Assembly: GCA_963575655.1 (NCBI GenBank)
Contig: CAUYTY010000111.1
Coordinates: 1 to 64,000, forward strand
Source: Gammaproteobacteria bacterium
GTDB taxonomy: Bacteria; Pseudomonadota; Gammaproteobacteria; CAIRSR01
Direction of reading: 5' to 3'
DNA: 64,000 nt
Part shown: positions 3,003-21,867 of the stretch, one piece after another
Numbering within the stretch: the stretch's first letter is position 1
Layout: each line of letters starts with the position of its first letter
The notes under the pieces: generated by a model
The model's input: only the letters and a program-made list of their open reading frames with translations
Database searches by the model: none
What the model was told of the DNA's origin: nothing
Position numbers and translations under genes: made by a program

Positions 3003-4001
3003 ATGAGTATGATCACGCGGCGCTCCAGAATTCTGATTATTGATGACATGCCGGCCAATCTGCGGACATTGGGAGCTGTGCTGTCCAAAGAATTCGAACT
3101 GCAAATTGCCAAGTCAGGGGCCATGGGGCTGGCGTTGGCGGAACAGTCGCCACCCGATCTTATCTTACTTGATGTAATGATGCCGGAAATGGATGGTTAT
3201 GAAACCTGCCGACGGTTTAAGTCTGATGCCCGCCTGCAGACTATCCCGATAATTTTTGTCACCGCCATGGTTGAAAGTGACGCTGAATATTCAGGTTTGG
3301 TCTTGGGCGCTGCTGACTATATTACAAAGCCAATCAATGTGGAAATTGCCAGTCAACGAATTCGGAATCTACTTGAACGGGAGAGATTGCGTAAAGAAGT
3401 TGAAGTATACCGTGATTATCTTGAGGAACTTGTGCAGGCACGTACTCTAGCTCTATCCATTGCGCAAGCGCATGTGTCTAATCTTGAGGGTATTGCCTAC
3501 TACGATCCACTTACTGGAATACCTAACCGCCGCTTGATGATAGATCACCTAAATCAGTCAATTGCTCATGCGAAAAGGATGGGGCGGCTATTAGCTGTTT
3601 GCTATTTTGATTTAGACGGTTTTAAACCGATCAATGACCAGTTGGGGCATGACGCGGGAGATCAATTGCTGTGTGAAATTACTCGCCGACTACAAGCTAT
3701 TCTCCGGGAATATGATACCCTAGCTAGAGTGGGTGGAGATGAATTTGTGTTACTCTTGAGTAATCTTGAGAAAGATACGGAATGCTATGATATCTTGGAG
3801 AGGGTTCTAACGACCATTAGAATGCCATTCATCATCAAGAATCAATTCATTATAATATCAGCAAGCCTAGGGCTGACAATTTATCCATACGATGATGCAA
3901 CGGTTGACGATTTAATCAGTCATGCTGATCAAGCAATGTATAGAGCAAAGCAAGAGGGGAAAAATCGTTTTTCGGTCTATCCCATCTCCACTGACCTTTG
4001 A
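3003..4001 (+). CDS. Response regulator with receiver and GGDEF (diguanylate cyclase) domains
   Basis: This is a 332-residue cytoplasmic signalling protein. The receiver domain covers about residues 7-125, with the acidic pair IIDD near the N terminus, the phospho-acceptor Asp in LILLDVMMPEMDG, and the conserved Lys in DYITKPIN. A coiled linker (about 125-160) joins it to a GGDEF domain with the intact active site RVGGDEFVLLL and the N-terminal YYDPLTGIPNRR. REYD lies five residues before GGDEF and matches the inhibitory RxxD site for c-di-GMP. The protein is therefore expected to make c-di-GMP when phosphorylated and to be product-inhibited. No cognate histidine kinase is adjacent. I chose the ATG at 3003, preceded by AAGGA with 9-base spacing; a GTG at 2985 would add six residues. 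Confidence 0.88.
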   Translation: MSMITRRSRILIIDDMPANLRTLGAVLSKEFELQIAKSGAMGLALAEQSPPDLILLDVMMPEMDGYETCRRFKSDARLQTIPIIFVTAMVESDAEYSGLVLGAADYITKPINVEIASQRIRNLLERERLRKEVEVYRDYLEELVQARTLALSIAQAHVSNLEGIAYYDPLTGIPNRRLMIDHLNQSIAHAKRMGRLLAVCYFDLDGFKPINDQLGHDAGDQLLCEITRRLQAILREYDTLARVGGDEFVLLLSNLEKDTECYDILERVLTTIRMPFIIKNQFIIISASLGLTIYPYDDATVDDLISHADQAMYRAKQEGKNRFSVYPISTDL

Positions 4002-4163
4002 CCTTTTCGAGTCTAATTATTAATCCCTGTCGGAATGACGAACTAACCGTTTACTAGGCGGAAACTTTGGTTAGCTATTAGCTGAGGGTATCTCTTCGCT
4101 CAACTTCTGGCTAATGGCTGATAATCTCTGTTGTGTGATATGCTTAACAAATTACATTTAGTT

Positions 4164-4214: not shown

Positions 4215-4641
4215 GTTGAGTCGCCGCCTAACTTTTCAACCTAGCGGAATCCATTCCGCTGGCTGAAAAGTTTGAGATTCAACCAGCCCGCCGAAAGGCA
4301 GCCGACAAGAAGTGAAGCGAAAGCGAGTCACCCTGGGATGCTTCTCCAGTCCCAGGCTCTGACGACGAAAGGAATGACGGTCGAGACGGTATAAGACCCA
4401 ATCCTTAGTCTGACCGACCTTCTTGTTCTGGGCGAGGAGACCTTTACTGGCGTAAGCCAAGTTACCCTTACGGGTTGACAGCCGGGAAAGACCTGCATTT
4501 TTACAGAAACGTCAAAGGACGGCGGGCTGCCTGAACCTCAATAGCAGCGGCTTCAGAATTTCCCTCGCGTCCTCTGCTCCATCGCATTACGCAACCGGAC
4601 TGGGGGAGCGTCGCACTCCCAGTGCTCCTTCGAGGAATACT
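4215..4641 (+). repeat. ~427-bp mobile-element-like repeat, copy 1
   Basis: This is nearly identical to 21437-21867, with about a dozen differences and small indels. The left end carries a 39-bp near-perfect palindrome (4232-4270: CTTTTCA..AGCGGAAT..ATTCCGCT..TGAAAAG). The right end carries a GGGAG/CTCCC hairpin. Inside, at about 4463-4499, is a block (CCTTACGGGTTGACAGCCGG) that is also found, slightly diverged, on the minus strand of the IS200/IS605-like element at 12118-12155. No intact ORF is present. End palindromes without terminal inverted repeats, plus the shared block, suggest a non-autonomous IS200/IS605-type element. That class is inferred. Confidence 0.7.
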
Positions 4642-8766: not shown

Positions 8767-8901
8767 AATAATGATCTTCTGTGCCGAGGTGAGTGTGGCG
8801 TACTATTTTCGAATGGGTGGATACGTTGCGCGGTTAGCGGTGCCCCAATCCTATTGTCATTTCGGCAGGGAGTGCCGGATCGTATCTCGTCGAATTATTG
8901 A

Positions 8902-9765
8902 ATGGACCTGATATCAAATAGGATGCCGCATATTCCTGCTGCGCCGAATTCCATTCAAAGGGGAACGCCGCTAAAACACTTGCTTGGGCCAGAGGCGGTA
9001 GATTGTCTGGCGTACAATATCTTGCTGGTGCATCCACAGTTTGATGGAGATGCGTTTCGTAGGGATGCGTTGGATGGTTTGGAGCCGCTAGGTATTCTGG
9101 ATCGCGGTAAGAAGTTGGCGCGGGTACTTCGTCAATATTTGCCGGAAAGATACGCGCCAGCAATAGAGATACTCTTGGCTTCACTGGCTCCGCCACTGAC
9201 TCGTACTGACGATCTCGGATTGGCGGTGTTTTTTTATCTGCCGCACGTTTTCTTTGTGGCAGCGTATGGTATTGATCCAGAAGGCAATGAAGGGCAGGAC
9301 CCCTTTGAAATCTCGATGAGGGCGCAATACGAACTCACTAAACGATTTAGTGCCGAGTTTTCGCTACGGCCATTCTTGATTCGAAGACAAGAGCAGACCT
9401 TATCACGATTACTTCAATGGACTGCGGATCCAGATCCCCATGTGCGGCGGCTTTGCTCGGAGGGTACTCGCCCAAGGTTGCCGTGGGCGGTACGAATTCC
9501 TGCGCTTATTGCGGATCCGGCCCCAAACCTGCCAATTCTTGAGGTGCTCAAAAACGATAGCAATCTTTATGTGCGCCGCAGTGTTGCCAACCATCTTGGT
9601 GATATTGCCAAAAACCACGCTGAACTGGTATTTGACATTTGTGAGCGATGGCTAATGGACTCATCTAACGAAGTAAAATGGCTTATCCGTCATGCGTTGC
9701 GACATCCAGCCAAGCAAGGGGATAAAGTTGCGCTTCAATTGAGAAGTGCCGCGAAAGCCAAGTAG
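8902..9765 (+). CDS. HEAT-repeat DNA alkylation repair protein (AlkC/AlkD-like)
   Basis: The 287-residue protein is almost wholly alpha-helical. The C-terminal half reads as HEAT repeats with the AlkC/AlkD signature, DPDPHVRRLCSEGTRPRLPW, then PILEVLKNDSNLYVRRSVANHL and SSNEVKWLIRHALRHPAKQG. In this superfamily the concave HEAT surface grips DNA and excises N3- or N7-alkylated purines. SEGTRPRLPW is characteristic of the AlkC-like branch. No signal peptide. It stands alone, about 135 bp after speE and 120 bp before coaX, all on the same strand. Substrate range cannot be told from sequence. Start chosen at the first ATG; ATG at codon 8 is possible. Confidence 0.78.
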   Translation: MDLISNRMPHIPAAPNSIQRGTPLKHLLGPEAVDCLAYNILLVHPQFDGDAFRRDALDGLEPLGILDRGKKLARVLRQYLPERYAPAIEILLASLAPPLTRTDDLGLAVFFYLPHVFFVAAYGIDPEGNEGQDPFEISMRAQYELTKRFSAEFSLRPFLIRRQEQTLSRLLQWTADPDPHVRRLCSEGTRPRLPWAVRIPALIADPAPNLPILEVLKNDSNLYVRRSVANHLGDIAKNHAELVFDICERWLMDSSNEVKWLIRHALRHPAKQGDKVALQLRSAAKAK

Positions 9766-9888
9766 GGAGTAGGCAAACATTACAAATATGTCTTGCGGGG
9801 ATTTAGTGGGGGTTGGAAAGTTTTCGTCGCCATTAATTTAGAAAGAGGGTATATGATTAATGAGGCGCAAGTTACATAGGAACTATCC

Positions 9889-10626
9889 GTGATCCTCCTG
9901 TTAGATATCGGTAATTCTCGGGTAAAGTGGGGTGTGCTCGCAGATGAAGGGCGAATCTCCGGGGTAGCGTCACGTTCTCTCGGTGGTCACGGTATTGGAG
10001 GCATTGCGGAGAGTTGTTGGTCGAGTTTCTCACCAACTCGGGTTATTGCTTCAAACGTGGCAGGGAGTAACCTGGCGGGCGAATTACGAGGGTGGGTGTG
10101 GGCAACTTGGCAACAGGAGGTAGAGTTCTTGGTGCCAACGGAACGGGCCTACGGTGTAACCAACGCCTACCGTGACCCCTCTCGTCTGGGTGCCGACCGT
10201 TGGGCTGCCCTCCTGGGCGCGGCGCGGCGGCCGCATGGTCATTTGTGCGTAGTGGATTGCGGTACTGCCGTAACGTTAGACCTCCTTTCCGCCGACAACG
10301 TCCATCTTGGTGGTCTAATTGTCCCAGGGAGGCGATTGATGCGCGACTCTTTGGTTACTGGTACGGCGGGGGTTCGTTACACCTGGGGAGCGGAAGCGGT
10401 GCTCCTGGCTTGTGACACGGGCAGTGCCGTTGCCGGTGGGGCGCTCTATGCCACCATTGCGTTGATCGACCGAGTGGTTGCCGACCTTGTCGAAGAATTC
10501 TCTGCCCCGGTCACGGTGCTCCTTACCGGTGGAGATGGCGCCCTTCTGCTCCCGTTGTTGGCGGGTACGGTTGAGTATGAAGCCAACTTGGTCCTACACG
10601 GACTCGCGGTCACCGCTGGTGTGTGA
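9889..10626 (+). CDS. coaX: Type III pantothenate kinase
   Basis: This is a 245-residue kinase of the ASKHA fold that makes 4'-phosphopantothenate, the first committed step to coenzyme A. It carries the phosphate-1 loop LLLDIGNSRVKWG at the N terminus, DPSRLGADRWAALLGA, the phosphate-2 loop VVDCGTAVTLDLL with the catalytic Asp, and GGLIVPGRRLMRDSL. Near the C terminus VLLTGGDGALLLPLL is the adenosine loop. Start is a GTG at 9889 with AGGA 8 bases before it. No birA lies upstream, although birA-coaX is a common arrangement. CoaX is the only pantothenate kinase seen here. Confidence 0.93.
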   Translation: MILLLDIGNSRVKWGVLADEGRISGVASRSLGGHGIGGIAESCWSSFSPTRVIASNVAGSNLAGELRGWVWATWQQEVEFLVPTERAYGVTNAYRDPSRLGADRWAALLGAARRPHGHLCVVDCGTAVTLDLLSADNVHLGGLIVPGRRLMRDSLVTGTAGVRYTWGAEAVLLACDTGSAVAGGALYATIALIDRVVADLVEEFSAPVTVLLTGGDGALLLPLLAGTVEYEANLVLHGLAVTAGV

Positions 10627-13250: not shown

Positions 13251-13619
13251 ATGAGCTACGCATCCGCACTCTTGACCAGTGGTGTCAGGCGTCTTTTATT
13301 TTTTCAAGCAGTGATTATTTTGGTTGTTGGGTGCGGTATGTGGGTACGTTACGGATATTTTTCTGCCCTTTCCTCCCTGTATGGGGGAGGAATCGCTATG
13401 GTTGTGTCCGCCTTGCTTGGTTGGCGGATGCTTGGCATAATAGACGCGCGTTTGAGTTTATTGCGTGTGTCGCTCGGGGCGCTGGAGCGTTTCTTGCTGG
13501 TTTTGCTGGGCCTTTGGGCGGGTATAGGTTGGTTGCGTCTTGCACCGCTTGCTTTGATTATGGGGTTCGTCGCTGCCCATATCGGTTATTTCTTTAAGTT
13601 GCCTGATCGTCTGGCGTGA
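13251..13619 (+). CDS. atpI: ATP synthase protein I (AtpI)
   Basis: This is a 122-residue membrane protein with four hydrophobic segments (about 16-35, 40-58, 74-95, 97-117) and a short basic C terminus, as in AtpI. It is not part of the enzyme but helps assemble the c-ring. It is the first gene of the atp operon, 66 bp before atpB. Family recognition rests on length, topology and position because AtpI sequences diverge strongly. Its presence is notable because the c subunit it serves is not encoded in the operon. Confidence 0.82.
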   Translation: MSYASALLTSGVRRLLFFQAVIILVVGCGMWVRYGYFSALSSLYGGGIAMVVSALLGWRMLGIIDARLSLLRVSLGALERFLLVLLGLWAGIGWLRLAPLALIMGFVAAHIGYFFKLPDRLA

Positions 13620-14477
<858 letters not shown>

Positions 14478-14735
14478 TTTAGTCTCCCGGGGCATCTGGG
14501 GATATTGTTGTCGATTCCGTTGGGATTGTTGGTATGATTGTGCTCGGAGTGAGTAGGCTAATCGCTTTTTGGGGTTGCGAGGGTTGCTGCTCTAAGGATG
14601 GGTTGGAGCGGTACTAGTGCGTGGCTGTCGAGATTCTGAGCCCTTAGGTTGGGACGAGTTATTGTAGGTGCCTCTCCCTTATCTTCTGTTAATAAGGGTA
14701 GGGGTGGGGTAGAACATCTTGTTAGGAGTTTCTCA
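14478..14735. other. atpB-atpF gap where atpE is expected but absent
   Basis: In gammaproteobacteria the ~80-codon atpE lies here. Three forward frames are broken by stops within about 45 codons, and the reverse frame that stays open encodes nothing like a c subunit. The glycine-rich helix and the ARQPE loop of subunit c are not seen in any frame. The region has a CCCTTAT/ATAAGGG stem (14677-14699, loop of 9) just before the atpF ribosome binding site. No residual atpE sequence was recognised. Confidence 0.75.
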
Positions 14736-15206
14736 GTGAACGTTACCGCCACGTTGCTCGGCCAGATGATCACCTTTACGGTGCTCGTGCTATTCGTCAA
14801 AGAGTATTTGTGGGGTCCAGTGACCCAGGCCTTAGAGGATCGCAAGAAACGGATTGCTGATGGTTTGGCGGCCGCCGAGCGTGGTCATCATGAGCGCGAG
14901 CTGGGTAAAAAAAAGGCGATGGAGATCATTCGAGAGGCTCGTGCGTCGGCAGCGGAGATGATCGAACAGGCCAATATTCGTGCCCATGATATTATCGAAG
15001 ACGCTGAAGGTGAGGCACGGGCTGCGGCCGAACGTCAAATGCTCGCGGCACAGACCGAGATCGAACAGGCAGCCAGTCGCGCCAGGGAGCAGTTACGCCA
15101 TGAATTAGTCGTCCTTGCCGTTGCGGCCGCTGAACGGATTTTGCGTAAAGAGGTCGATGCCAAAGAGCATGAGCAGTTGCTCGCCCATTTCGCCGCCAAC
15201 CTTTAA
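14736..15206 (+). CDS. atpF: F1Fo ATP synthase subunit b
   Basis: The 156-residue peripheral stalk subunit has one N-terminal membrane helix (NVTATLLGQMITFTVLVLF) followed by a long, charged, Ala-rich coiled coil (LEDRKKRIADGLAAAERG...) that dimerises and binds delta. The start I take is the GTG in front of NVTATLLGQ, which matches E. coli MNLNATILGQ and has TTAGGAG 7 bases upstream. The open frame begins earlier, but that part is not conserved. Length equals E. coli AtpF (156). Confidence 0.94.
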   Translation: MNVTATLLGQMITFTVLVLFVKEYLWGPVTQALEDRKKRIADGLAAAERGHHERELGKKKAMEIIREARASAAEMIEQANIRAHDIIEDAEGEARAAAERQMLAAQTEIEQAASRAREQLRHELVVLAVAAAERILRKEVDAKEHEQLLAHFAANL

Positions 15207-15230: not shown

Positions 15231-15767
15231 ATGTCGGATAAGATCACCATCGCCCGCCCTTATGCCCGTGCTGTCTTCGAGCAGGCACAGCGGGAGGACG
15301 CTTTAGAATCTTGGTCGGAAATGCTTACCCTTGCCGCCCATGTTGTGGAGGATCCTGTGATTTCGGGGCTTCTCGACAATCCGCTGATTGGTCGTGATCA
15401 GATCGCGGGAATGATTTTCGGTGTGGTGGGGGAGCACTTCTCGGAGCAGGGGCGTAACCTGATCCGGGTTTTGGCAATGAACGATCGGATCGTGGTGTTG
15501 CCAGAGATTGCCGCGTTATTCGACGCACAGAAGTCTGAAGTCGAAAATAAGTTGGAGGCAGAGGTTGTTTCTGCCTACCCGATGAATGACACGCAAGAAC
15601 AGATTCTTACCCAGGCGTTAGGAAAGCGCTTTGGTCGTACGGTCAAGATTACGACGCGTGTCGATCAAAATCTCATCGGCGGTGTCATTGTACGCGCCGG
15701 TGATGTTGTGATCGACGGTTCGCTGCGGGCAGGATTGGCGCAAATGGCAAGCGAGTTGCGTGTCTGA
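15231..15767 (+). CDS. atpH: F1Fo ATP synthase subunit delta
   Basis: The 178-residue OSCP-like subunit joins the b stalk to the top of F1. The N-terminal six-helix domain starts TIARPYARAVFEQAQ, the hallmark segment. The C-terminal part has VVSAYPMNDTQEQILTQALGKRFGR and ends in IGGVIVRAGDVVIDGSLRAGL, both conserved. The gene starts 24 bp after atpF. A protease-like gene, not atpA, comes next. Confidence 0.95.
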   Translation: MSDKITIARPYARAVFEQAQREDALESWSEMLTLAAHVVEDPVISGLLDNPLIGRDQIAGMIFGVVGEHFSEQGRNLIRVLAMNDRIVVLPEIAALFDAQKSEVENKLEAEVVSAYPMNDTQEQILTQALGKRFGRTVKITTRVDQNLIGGVIVRAGDVVIDGSLRAGLAQMASELRV

Positions 15768-15791: not shown

Positions 15792-16214
15792 ATGGGACTG
15801 ATTTATGCGGAAATAACTTTGAGTAATGCACGTAAACCGGAAATTCGCCCGATCGCGGTACGTGCTCTGGTCGATACCGGGGCGGTGCATCTTTGTATAC
15901 CAAAGCATATTTCCCTGCAACTAGACCTGGATAGCTACGAAGAGCGTGAAGTTGAAATCGCCGATGGTTCGGTGCAGCGGCGGTCTTATGTTGGGCCGAT
16001 CCTGACTGCTTTTGAGAATCGTCGTTGTCTAACAGGGGCGATGGTGCTAGGTAACGAGGTGTTGTTGGGGGCAATTCCGTTGGAGGATATGGATCTAGTG
16101 GTCAATCTGGCTCGACAGGAGATCACGGTCAATCCCGCCAACCCCAACCTCGCGGTTAGCAAAGCAAAGCCAATCACGCGACCCGAAGGTCGTGGTTTGA
16201 GAAACTCGGTCTGA
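15792..16214 (+). CDS. Clan AA (retropepsin-like) aspartic protease
   Basis: The 140-residue single-domain protein has RALVDTGAVHLCIP near residue 27, the active-site D-T-G-A of clan AA, followed by a flap-like segment (VEIADGSVQRRSYVGPI) and the second conserved strand VLLGAIPLEDMDLVV before a tail. One domain of this size would act as a homodimer, as retropepsins do. No signal peptide is seen, so it should be cytoplasmic. It lies 24 bp after atpH and 115 bp before atpA on the same strand, so it is probably co-transcribed with the ATP synthase genes. That place is normally empty in bacteria. Stand-alone proteases of this family are known but their substrates are not. It may be a passenger gene. 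Confidence 0.8.
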   Translation: MGLIYAEITLSNARKPEIRPIAVRALVDTGAVHLCIPKHISLQLDLDSYEEREVEIADGSVQRRSYVGPILTAFENRRCLTGAMVLGNEVLLGAIPLEDMDLVVNLARQEITVNPANPNLAVSKAKPITRPEGRGLRNSV

Positions 16215-16329: not shown

Positions 16330-17874
16330 ATGTTGCAACTCAGCCCTACTGAAATCAGCGAACTGATCCAGAAGCAGATTCAGACATTCGACATTAAGGT
16401 CGAGGCACACACCGAAGGTCGGGTGGTGAGCCTCACCGATGGTATTGCTCGTATCCACGGATTAGAGGATGTCATGTCGGGTGAGATGTTGGAGTTTCCC
16501 CAGCAGACCTTTGGGATGGCGCTCAATCTGGAGCGTAATTTCGTGGGTGCGGTAATCATGGGGGATTACAAACATATCTCCGAGGGGGACACGGTACGCT
16601 GTACTAATCGTATCCTGGAGGTCCCGGTAGGACGTGCTCTGCTGGGGCGGGTAGTTAATTCGCTGGGTGCCCCGATTGACGCCAAAGGTCCCATTGAGGC
16701 AGAAGGTCGTGCCACCATCGAGAAAGTGGCTCCGGGGGTGATTACTCGCAAGTCTGTGAGTCAACCGATGCAGACCGGAATCAAGGCCATTGATGCGATG
16801 GTTCCCGTCGGGCGGGGCCAGCGCGAGTTGATCATTGGTGATCGGCAGACTGGCAAAACTGCAGTTGCGATTGACGCTATTATCAATCAGCGTGATACCG
16901 GTGTCATTTGCATTTATGTCGCCATCGGTCAGAAGGCCTCCAGCATTGCCAATGTCGTGCGCAAGCTGGAGGAGCACGGCGCGTTGGAACATACCATCAT
17001 CGTGGCGGCCCCTGCCTCCGAGTCGGCGGCGCTGCAATTCATCGCCCCTTATGCCGGGTGCGCGATGGGTGAGTATTTCCGTGACCAGGGCGAGGATGCC
17101 CTCATTGTCTACGATGATCTCACTAAACAGGCATGGGCCTATCGGCAGGTGTCGTTATTGTTGCGTCGTCCGCCGGGTCGTGAGGCCTATCCGGGCGATG
17201 TCTTCTATTTGCATTCGCGCTTGCTGGAGCGTGCTGCCCGGGTTAATGAGGAATTCGTGGAGAATGCCACGGGTGGTCGGGTGAAGGGCAAGAGTGGCTC
17301 GCTAACGGCATTGCCGATTATCGAGACCCAAGCAGGTGACGTGTCGGCCTTCGTACCCACTAATGTGATTTCAATCACCGACGGCCAGATCTTCTTGGAG
17401 AGCGATCTATTTAATGCGGGGATTCGGCCTGCCATTAATGCGGGTCTCTCGGTATCGCGGGTGGGTGGTGCAGCTCAGAGTAAGATCATCAAAAAACTCG
17501 GTGGTGGTGTACGTCTGGACCTGGCCCAATATCGTGAATTGGCGGCCTTTGCCCAGTTTGCCTCTGACCTGGATGAGTCTACCCGTCGACAACTGGAACG
17601 CGGTCAGCGTATTACGGAATTAATGAAGCAGCCCCAATATCATCCAATGTCGGTGGCTGATATGGCGGTGTCTCTGTTCTCCGTGAGTCAGGGGTTCTTG
17701 GATGATGTGCCGGTAAAGAAGGTAGTAGAGTTTGAGCGTGCCCTGCATAGCTATATGCATCACTACCAGGCTGACCTTCTTGCCCGTATCAACGAGAAGC
17801 CGGAGTATACCGACGATGTGGAGAGTGGCCTGCGTGCTGCTCTTACGGATTTCAAGGCTACCCACGCCTGGTAA
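16330..17874 (+). CDS. atpA: F1Fo ATP synthase subunit alpha
   Basis: The 514-residue non-catalytic nucleotide-binding subunit of F1 shows [17 protein letters not shown] at the N terminus, the Walker A loop [29 protein letters not shown], Walker [12 protein letters not shown], the arginine-finger region with [10 protein letters not shown], and the C-terminal helical domain. All are as in E. coli AtpA (513 residues). A TTG two codons earlier could also serve, with GAGGAA suitably placed. I prefer ATG at 16330 because the family starts MQLN/MLQL. Confidence 0.97.
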
Positions 17875-17974: not shown

Positions 17975-18841
17975 ATGGCCGGCGGTAAGAACATTCGCGA
18001 AAAGATCAAAAGCATCAAGAGCACCCAGAAGATCACCCGGGCCATGGAGATGGTGGCCGCTAGCAAGGTGCGTCGCTTTCAAGATCGGATGGCGGCGTCC
18101 CGCCCTTACGCAAATCTCATGCGTCGGGTGGTTGGGCATATGTCTCGTGCCAATCCCGAATATCCCCATCCCTATGTCCTCTCTCGCCCAGAGGTTAAAA
18201 ATCTCGGTTTTATCGTTATTACCTCGGACCGTGGGTTGTGTGGCGGCCTCAATAATAATGTGTTGCGTTCCGTGTTGTTGCGGATGCGCCAAGCAGAGCG
18301 TGAGGGGCAGGGGGTGCGGTGTTGTAGTATCGGACTCAAGGGGAATGTGTTTCTCAAACGTGCTGGGGCAAATATTGTTTCCAGTGTGGCTCACCTGGGC
18401 GATCCACCTCATGTTGCGGATCTGATTGGTGCGGTCAAAGTCATGTTGGATTCCTATGTGAGTGGTGAGATTGACCGTCTGTATCTGGTCTACAACCATT
18501 TTGTCAATACCATGACTCAGACCCCGACTGTAGAGCAACTCCTGCCACTACCTCCCGATACCGGAACTGAGGCTACTAAGGATTCTTGGGATTATCTCTA
18601 CGAACCAGAGGCGGGGCAGGTAATTAGCGAATTGATGGTGCGTTTTATCGAATCATTGGTTTATCAGGGAGTCGTGGAGAATATGGCATCCGAAATGGCG
18701 GCGCGCATGGTGGCTATGAAGGCGGCCTCTGACAATGCGATGGCCGTTATTGGTGAACTTCAGATTGCCTATAACCAGGCCCGTCAGGCGGCCATTACCC
18801 AGGAGTTGTCGGAGATTGTGGCTGGAGCTGCGGCGGTGTGA
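17975..18841 (+). CDS. atpG: F1Fo ATP synthase subunit gamma
   Basis: The 288-residue rotor shaft of F1 begins [28 protein letters not shown] with the diagnostic N-terminal helix. The central Rossmann-like part contains [16 protein letters not shown]. The C-terminal helix ends [18 protein letters not shown]. Length is that of E. coli AtpG (287). It lies 100 bp after atpA. Confidence 0.97.
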
Positions 18842-18874: not shown

Positions 18875-20323
<1,449 letters not shown>

Positions 20324-20350: not shown

Positions 20351-20779
20351 ATGTCCATGACCATTCATGTGGACATTGTGAGCGCCGAGGGGTCGCTCCA
20401 CTCAGGCGTCGCCACGATGGTGTGCGCCCCGGCGATGATGGGTGAGGTTGGTATTATGCCTCGCCATTCGCCTTTCCTCAGTAAGCTTATACCCGGAGAG
20501 GTGCGGATTCATACCCAGGGGGGCGAGGAAGAGATTTTCTACATCTCCGGCGGCCTTCTGGAGGTTCAGCCTCATGTGGTGACAATCCTGGCGGATACTG
20601 CGGTGCGCGCCAAGGACCTCGATGAGGTCAAGGCCTTGGAGGCCAGGGAACGGGCGATGCAGCTTATCAAGGATCGTAAGTCAGACGTTGACTATGTCCG
20701 TGTCCACGCCGAATTGCTGGAGGCTATTGCCCAGCTGCGGACGATCCAGACGTTGCGCAAGAAATTGAAACGGGCATAG
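20351..20779 (+). CDS. atpC: F1Fo ATP synthase subunit epsilon
   Basis: The 142-residue subunit has an N-terminal beta sandwich (IHVDIVSAEGSLHSG, GIMPRHSPFLSKLIPGEV, YISGGLLEVQPHVVTILADTAVRA) and a C-terminal two-helix hairpin that regulates rotation. It starts 27 bp after atpD with GAGGAGGAT-like sequence before the ATG. It closes the operon; a G/C-rich stem follows. Confidence 0.96.
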   Translation: MSMTIHVDIVSAEGSLHSGVATMVCAPAMMGEVGIMPRHSPFLSKLIPGEVRIHTQGGEEEIFYISGGLLEVQPHVVTILADTAVRAKDLDEVKALEARERAMQLIKDRKSDVDYVRVHAELLEAIAQLRTIQTLRKKLKRA

Positions 20780-21436: not shown

Positions 21437-21867
21437 GTTGAGTCGCCGCCTAACTTTTCAACCTAGCGGAATCCATTCCGCTGGCTGAAAAGTTTGAGAT
21501 TCAACCAGCCCGCCGAAAGGCAGCCGACAAGAAGTGAAGCGAAAGCGAGTCACCCTGGGATGCTTCTCCAGTCCCAGGCTCTGACGACGAAAGGAATGAC
21601 GGTCGAGAGACGGTATAAGACCCAATCCTTAGTCTGACCGACCTTCTTGTTCTGGGCGAGGAGACCTTTACTGGCGTAAGCCAAGTTACCCTTACGGGTT
21701 GACAGCCGGGAAAGACCGGCATTTTTACAGAAACGTCAAAGGACGGCGGGCTGGCTGAACCTCAATGGCAGCGGCCTCAGAATTTCCCTCGCGTCCTCTG
21801 CTCCATTGCATTACGCAACCGGACTGGGGGAGTGTCGCACTCCCAGTGCTCCTTCGGGGAGAATACT
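21437..21867 (+). repeat. ~431-bp mobile-element-like repeat, copy 2
   Basis: This is nearly identical to 4215-4641. The left palindrome and internal block are the same. The right-end hairpin is more perfect here (ACTGGG..GGAGTG-TCG-CACTCC..CAGT). The homology ends at GAATACT (21867) and glmU's TTG start is the next base. GGGGAG in the last 15 bases is the best Shine-Dalgarno for glmU and lies inside the repeat. The element has evidently inserted just upstream of, or into the leader of, glmU. Confidence 0.75.

Follow-up and report, generated by a model that had tools for sequence, protein, structure and literature searches.

The 64,000-nucleotide stretch of DNA analyzed here (the window) lies on contig C111 of a genome, hereafter G000, with a size of 4.22 Mb in 261 contigs and a completeness of 98%. 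Its forward strand carries an atp operon that is complete apart from atpE, the gene for subunit c. The first gene is atpI (13251–13619; PF03899, E = 4.7e-8), encoding the assembly factor of the c-ring, whose presence had been noted in an earlier sequence-only reading of this DNA and was confirmed by the profile match. It is followed by atpB, encoding subunit a (13686–14477; PF00119, E = 1.4e-51), whose orthologs in three relatives (G001–G003) are 67–79% identical. The stop codon of atpB at 14477 and the GTG start codon of atpF at 14736 are separated by a 258-bp spacer (14478–14735), the 3' end of which forms the Shine-Dalgarno site of atpF. Downstream of the spacer are atpF (subunit b, 14736–15206; PF00430, E = 4.1e-27), atpH (subunit delta, 15231–15767; PF00213, E = 3.2e-47), atpA (subunit alpha, 16330–17874), atpG (subunit gamma, 17975–18841), atpD (subunit beta, 18944–20323), and atpC (subunit epsilon, 20351–20779). 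The products of the last four genes are 93%, 84%, 97%, and 79% identical to their G001 orthologs, respectively, and for atpD the identity to the family relatives ranges from 91% to 97%. A small aspartic-protease-like open reading frame between atpH and atpA (15792–16214; PF13975, E = 9e-5, under the curated cut-off) was found only in G000, and the atpH–atpA gap is 24–27 bp in G001–G003.

The absence of atpE between atpB and atpF, which the sequence-only reading had proposed, was borne out. None of the six frames of the 258-bp spacer contained a c-subunit frame or an atpE remnant, and a tblastn comparison of the spacer with the genome's own atpE gave only noise (best E about 2.6). The spacer occurs once in the genome, which ruled out a repeat. 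It had no Rfam match, and the folds of the corresponding gaps in four species of the family showed no obvious common feature. The four spacers could be aligned only at the ribosome-binding region.

The same reading had assumed that atpE normally sits between atpB and atpF, and this assumption held well. The genes for subunits a, c, and b were contiguous in 74 of 76 named outgroup loci and in all 24 outgroup operons that were examined whole. In both exceptions (L112 and L143), the c gene was still followed by the b gene. At L112, atpB was off the contig end, while at L143 an insertion sequence immediately 5' of atpE cut off atpB. The latter locus, from an unrelated metagenome-assembled genome (MAG), has its insertion-sequence transposase gene at 8900–10000, upstream of atpE, and atpB was not found within the locus.

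To place this arrangement among relatives, we compared four species of one GTDB family: G000, G001 from the same genus, and G002 and G003 from a sister genus. The latter two are the MAGs CAIJYR01 (KR_bin-0880) and CAIRSR01 (KR_bin-4016), labeled 'uncultured Thiotrichales'. All four species lacked atpE at the atpB–atpF site, with gaps of 258, 141, 135, and 185 bp in G000 to G003, respectively, and no c remnants. Absence in all four species and presence in the outgroup loci indicate that the break in the operon is old, real, and family-specific.

The sequence-only reading had considered that atpE had moved, had been replaced by a homolog elsewhere, or had been lost at an assembly gap, and had called for a whole-genome search with c-subunit profiles. 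Searching G000 with the PF00137 profile yielded four matches, one on contig C29, one on C110, and two on C27. None was on C111, in agreement with the claim that the window holds no c-subunit gene elsewhere. One of the two C27 genes, termed E1 (C27:2630–2932; 100 aa), is an intact, canonical atpE, scoring 41 bits against a cut-off of 24, so the part of the earlier proposal that placed the gene elsewhere stood. E1 shares the two-helix hairpin, the RQP loop, and the helix-2 glutamate of canonical F-type subunit c. This glutamate (in GLMESFPF) aligns to the D/E of solved c-subunits at the D61 position. The protein is about 75% identical to subunit c of Thiomicrospira, Halothiobacillus, and others. 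Unlike a canonical atpE, E1 lies outside the atp operon, although location between atpB and atpF is typical of the gene rather than defining. Intact E1 was found in all four family species. The C29 contig carries a V/A-type ATPase operon (L007), and similar c-type genes were present in G001, G002, and G003.

Could atpE really be in the operon and have been dropped during assembly or binning, with C27 being a foreign contig? The fragmentation of the genome and the small size of C27 (8 kb) would allow this. However, the three relatives, assembled independently, show the same absence, and in G001 atpB (C44:6171–6950) and atpE (C44:30345–30641) lie on opposite strands about 23 kb apart on a single 42-kb contig. 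C27 also carries genes for a histidine kinase and a class I lysyl-tRNA synthetase as well as rpmB/rpmG-like and thiL-like genes, and its E1 and the E1 of the sister species G001 share 85% identity. C27 further carries the species' own 416-bp repeat, in a copy that matches two in the window at 96% identity, which places C27 in the same genome as the window. Given these observations, an artefact is scarcely credible, and the assembly-gap part of the earlier proposal does not stand.

The 416-bp repeat has internal inverted arms, and its copies lie at 4215–4631 and 21437–21855 of the window and at 3723–4138 of the C27 locus L005. At least 40 full or partial copies were found in G000, of which 17, besides the query copy, were near full length with 90–96% identity. 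One copy begins 3 bp past the stop codon of the second c-like gene on C27. Diverged traces of the repeat were found in G001 and G002 and none in G003.

A second complete F-type operon is present on C110 (L006, 533–7284), with genes for subunits a, c, b, delta, alpha, gamma, beta, and epsilon and the c gene in its usual place. A similar operon occurs in G001 (C297; L064) and is absent from G002 and G003. The beta subunit encoded on C110 is about 65% identical to the atpD product of the window. Since C110 encodes the full set, its c gene might be thought to supply the c-ring of the operon in the window. This is very improbable, because G002 and G003, with a single AtpB each and no second operon, have the same gap and have kept E1, and because the C110 c-subunit shares only about 33% identity with E1.

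The surroundings of E1 differ within the family. E1 lies near thiL in G000, near secA in G001, and between genes for RNase II and a pyridine-nucleotide-disulphide oxidoreductase in G002 and G003. These differences suggest that E1 kept moving or that its surroundings were rearranged. A gene for a membrane-bound H+-pyrophosphatase (L058, 10168–12207) was located close to the c-gene pair of G002.

We compared AtpB, AtpE, and combined A+D+G trees, in which the AtpB and F1 placement of the family had no firm position, to ask whether the native gene had been lost and replaced by a xenolog from another gammaproteobacterium of the 'ESFPF' type, which was then duplicated. In the AtpE tree, E1 fell inside the 'ESFPF' gammaproteobacterial cluster, grouping with long-loop-type c genes (support 95/90), while the AtpB of the family, with its short loop before the last helix, fell outside the long-loop AtpB clade (96/97). 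This mismatch would fit a xenologous origin. However, in G029 a normally ordered operon encodes an 'ESFPF' c-subunit together with a short-loop AtpB, and vertical descent fits the trees too, given that AtpB and F1 do not place the family firmly. We therefore regard a xenologous replacement as rather unlikely. The relocation of atpE as such is well supported, and the trees are compatible both with a move of the native gene and with its replacement by a related one.

Directly downstream of E1, on the same strand, lies a second c-like gene, termed E2 (C27:3403–3720; 105 aa). The tandem, same-strand arrangement of E1 and E2 was found in G000, G002, and G003, with spacers of 470, 129, and 467 bp, respectively. 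E2 is thus present in three of the four species and in two genera, and G003 has two further, unlinked copies (on C28 and C65), giving five copies in all. No E2 was found in G001 (99% complete), although E1 was present, indicating that members of the family can do without E2. The E2 proteins are about 50–58% identical to E1, and both this identity and the trees make their homology clear. The five copies formed one clade (support 100/99), in which the G000 copy had a long branch and an odd composition. The three E1-linked copies scored 23.9, 28.5, and 27.5 bits with PF00137, around the cut-off of 24, while the two unlinked G003 copies (E2b and E2c) had no match.

Few residues in bioenergetics are as conserved as the carboxylate of subunit c. 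In all five E2 copies the residue equivalent to D61 of E. coli is a glycine, with Gly-Asn replacing Glu-Ser, so that the MESFPF motif is changed to MGNFPF or VGNFPF. The glutamine of the loop, which docks F1, is also replaced in all five copies. The loop proline is invariant, and the loop arginine is kept or changed to lysine (lysine in G000). The helix-1 glycines are retained in four of the five copies, and the proline of helix 2, the outer helix, is retained. An AlphaFold2 model of E2 showed two long helices and an additional C-terminal one, with a mean pLDDT of only 69.6. We searched 369 genomes of the class with a DNA motif for G-x-x-GNFPF, and matches at c genes were confined to three of the four family members. 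The lone GNFPF match outside the family (G338) was not at a recognizable c gene, and no E2 was found on viral contigs.

The loss of the essential carboxylate, the absence of E2 from G001, and the long branch and odd composition of the G000 copy raise the question of whether E2 is a functionless duplicate undergoing decay. We consider decay improbable, because the reading frame is open in all five copies, the identical Gly-Asn occurs in two genera, and good ribosome-binding sites (Shine-Dalgarno) precede E2. Moreover, between G002 and G003, where the E2 proteins are 82% identical, dN/dS was 0.058 for E2 and 0.070 for E1; these are rough values, as dS was 1.4–1.8 and near saturation, and usable ratios came from only two species pairs. 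A dN/dS of about 0.06 indicates that E2 is under purifying selection.

Taken together, these results make it very probable that, in the ancestor of the family, atpE moved out of the atp operon or a close relative took its place in trans, that the c-ring of the operon in the window is now built from the unlinked E1, and that E2 is a tandem paralog kept by selection. E1 would then be expressed in the needed excess and assemble with the AtpB encoded in the window. Once outside the operon, E1 would have been duplicated to give E2, which would have lost its carboxylate to glycine, together with the loop glutamine.

The copy numbers of c genes also differ within the family. G002 and G003 have four and eight F-type c genes, respectively, each with a single AtpB. 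The four genes of G002 are E1, E2, and members of two further clades, E3 and E4. The E3 and E4 genes (L059, L061) retain the carboxylate, were found only in G002 and G003, and are arranged as opposite-strand pairs away from any a-subunit gene and from the operon.

What might E2 do? Its most plausible role would be to act on the E1 ring, where it could be a minor component, tuning or blocking rotation without translocating protons itself, or a partner in ring assembly; we give a link with the ring of some kind, including true protomers, a chance somewhat below even. Almost as plausible to us, E2 may have left the ATP synthase to form a membrane oligomer of its own, such as a channel, a scaffold, or part of a transporter. 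That E2 has neither the proton site nor the loop glutamine would fit such a departure, as would the unlinked copies of G003, which adjoin unrelated genes. However, the tandem linkage to E1 is conserved in two genera, and the glycines retained in E2 are those of ring packing.

Known rotors bear on a role in the ring. In the rotor of Acetobacterium woodii, the c1 subunit is partly without an ion site. This heteromeric F/V-hybrid rotor (PDB 4bem; c1 + c2/c3), of which chains 4bem_J and 4bem_A were among the structure matches, resembles the present case in that several c genes go with one F1Fo. In A. woodii, however, the site-less hairpin is fused within a four-helix, V-type-like c1 encoded inside the operon, in a Na+ system, whereas E2 is an F-type paralog that stands alone, with about 105 aa, a single predicted two-helix hairpin, a glycine in place of the carboxylate, and a gene outside the operon. 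In the c10 ring of Bacillus PS3, a single c-subunit with a Glu-to-Gln substitution abolishes ATP synthesis and proton pumping, as related in a passage of PMC8809890 that cites Mitome 2004. Because a comparable single substitution abolishes the activity of a bacterial enzyme, it is improbable that E2 works as an ordinary c-subunit. By the same PS3 result, as that passage gives it, a ring into which E2 entered freely should suffer unless such entry were regulated. If E2 does enter the ring, it would either act as a brake under some condition or require compensation by design, of the kind found in the A. woodii hybrid rotor. A selected, carboxylate-less protomer that sets the gearing of the same ATP synthase rotor or locks it is a rather doubtful version of this role. 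If true, the ion count of the ring or the stopping of rotation would be controlled by the choice among c paralogs encoded outside the operon.

Subunit c is also encoded by multiple nuclear genes in Podospora anserina (PMC4956034) and for mammalian mitochondria. Those paralogs are reported to encode working c-subunits used for regulation, whereas E2 has no carboxylate. In Achromatium oxaliferum (PMC5587575), the atp operon is likewise often interrupted, with single genes on other scaffolds. However, that variation is among the genome copies of one cell and comes from mobile elements, while the arrangement described here is fixed across the family. We found no earlier account of bacterial atpE relocation or of duplicate site-less c genes in the open literature, which is not proof of absence.

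The relocation of atpE means that the co-translated atpB-atpE-atpF order is dispensable. Taken by itself the move is a moderately interesting finding, and it gains in interest from the conserved paralog without a carboxylate and from the surplus of c genes. The arrangement of E1 and E2 hints at a rotor of an unusual kind or at a built-in regulator. A family with a selected site-less c gene beside a relocated atpE is a natural test for heteromeric or switchable c-rings beyond the A. woodii type, and the two species with four and eight c genes per a-subunit gene add to that test.
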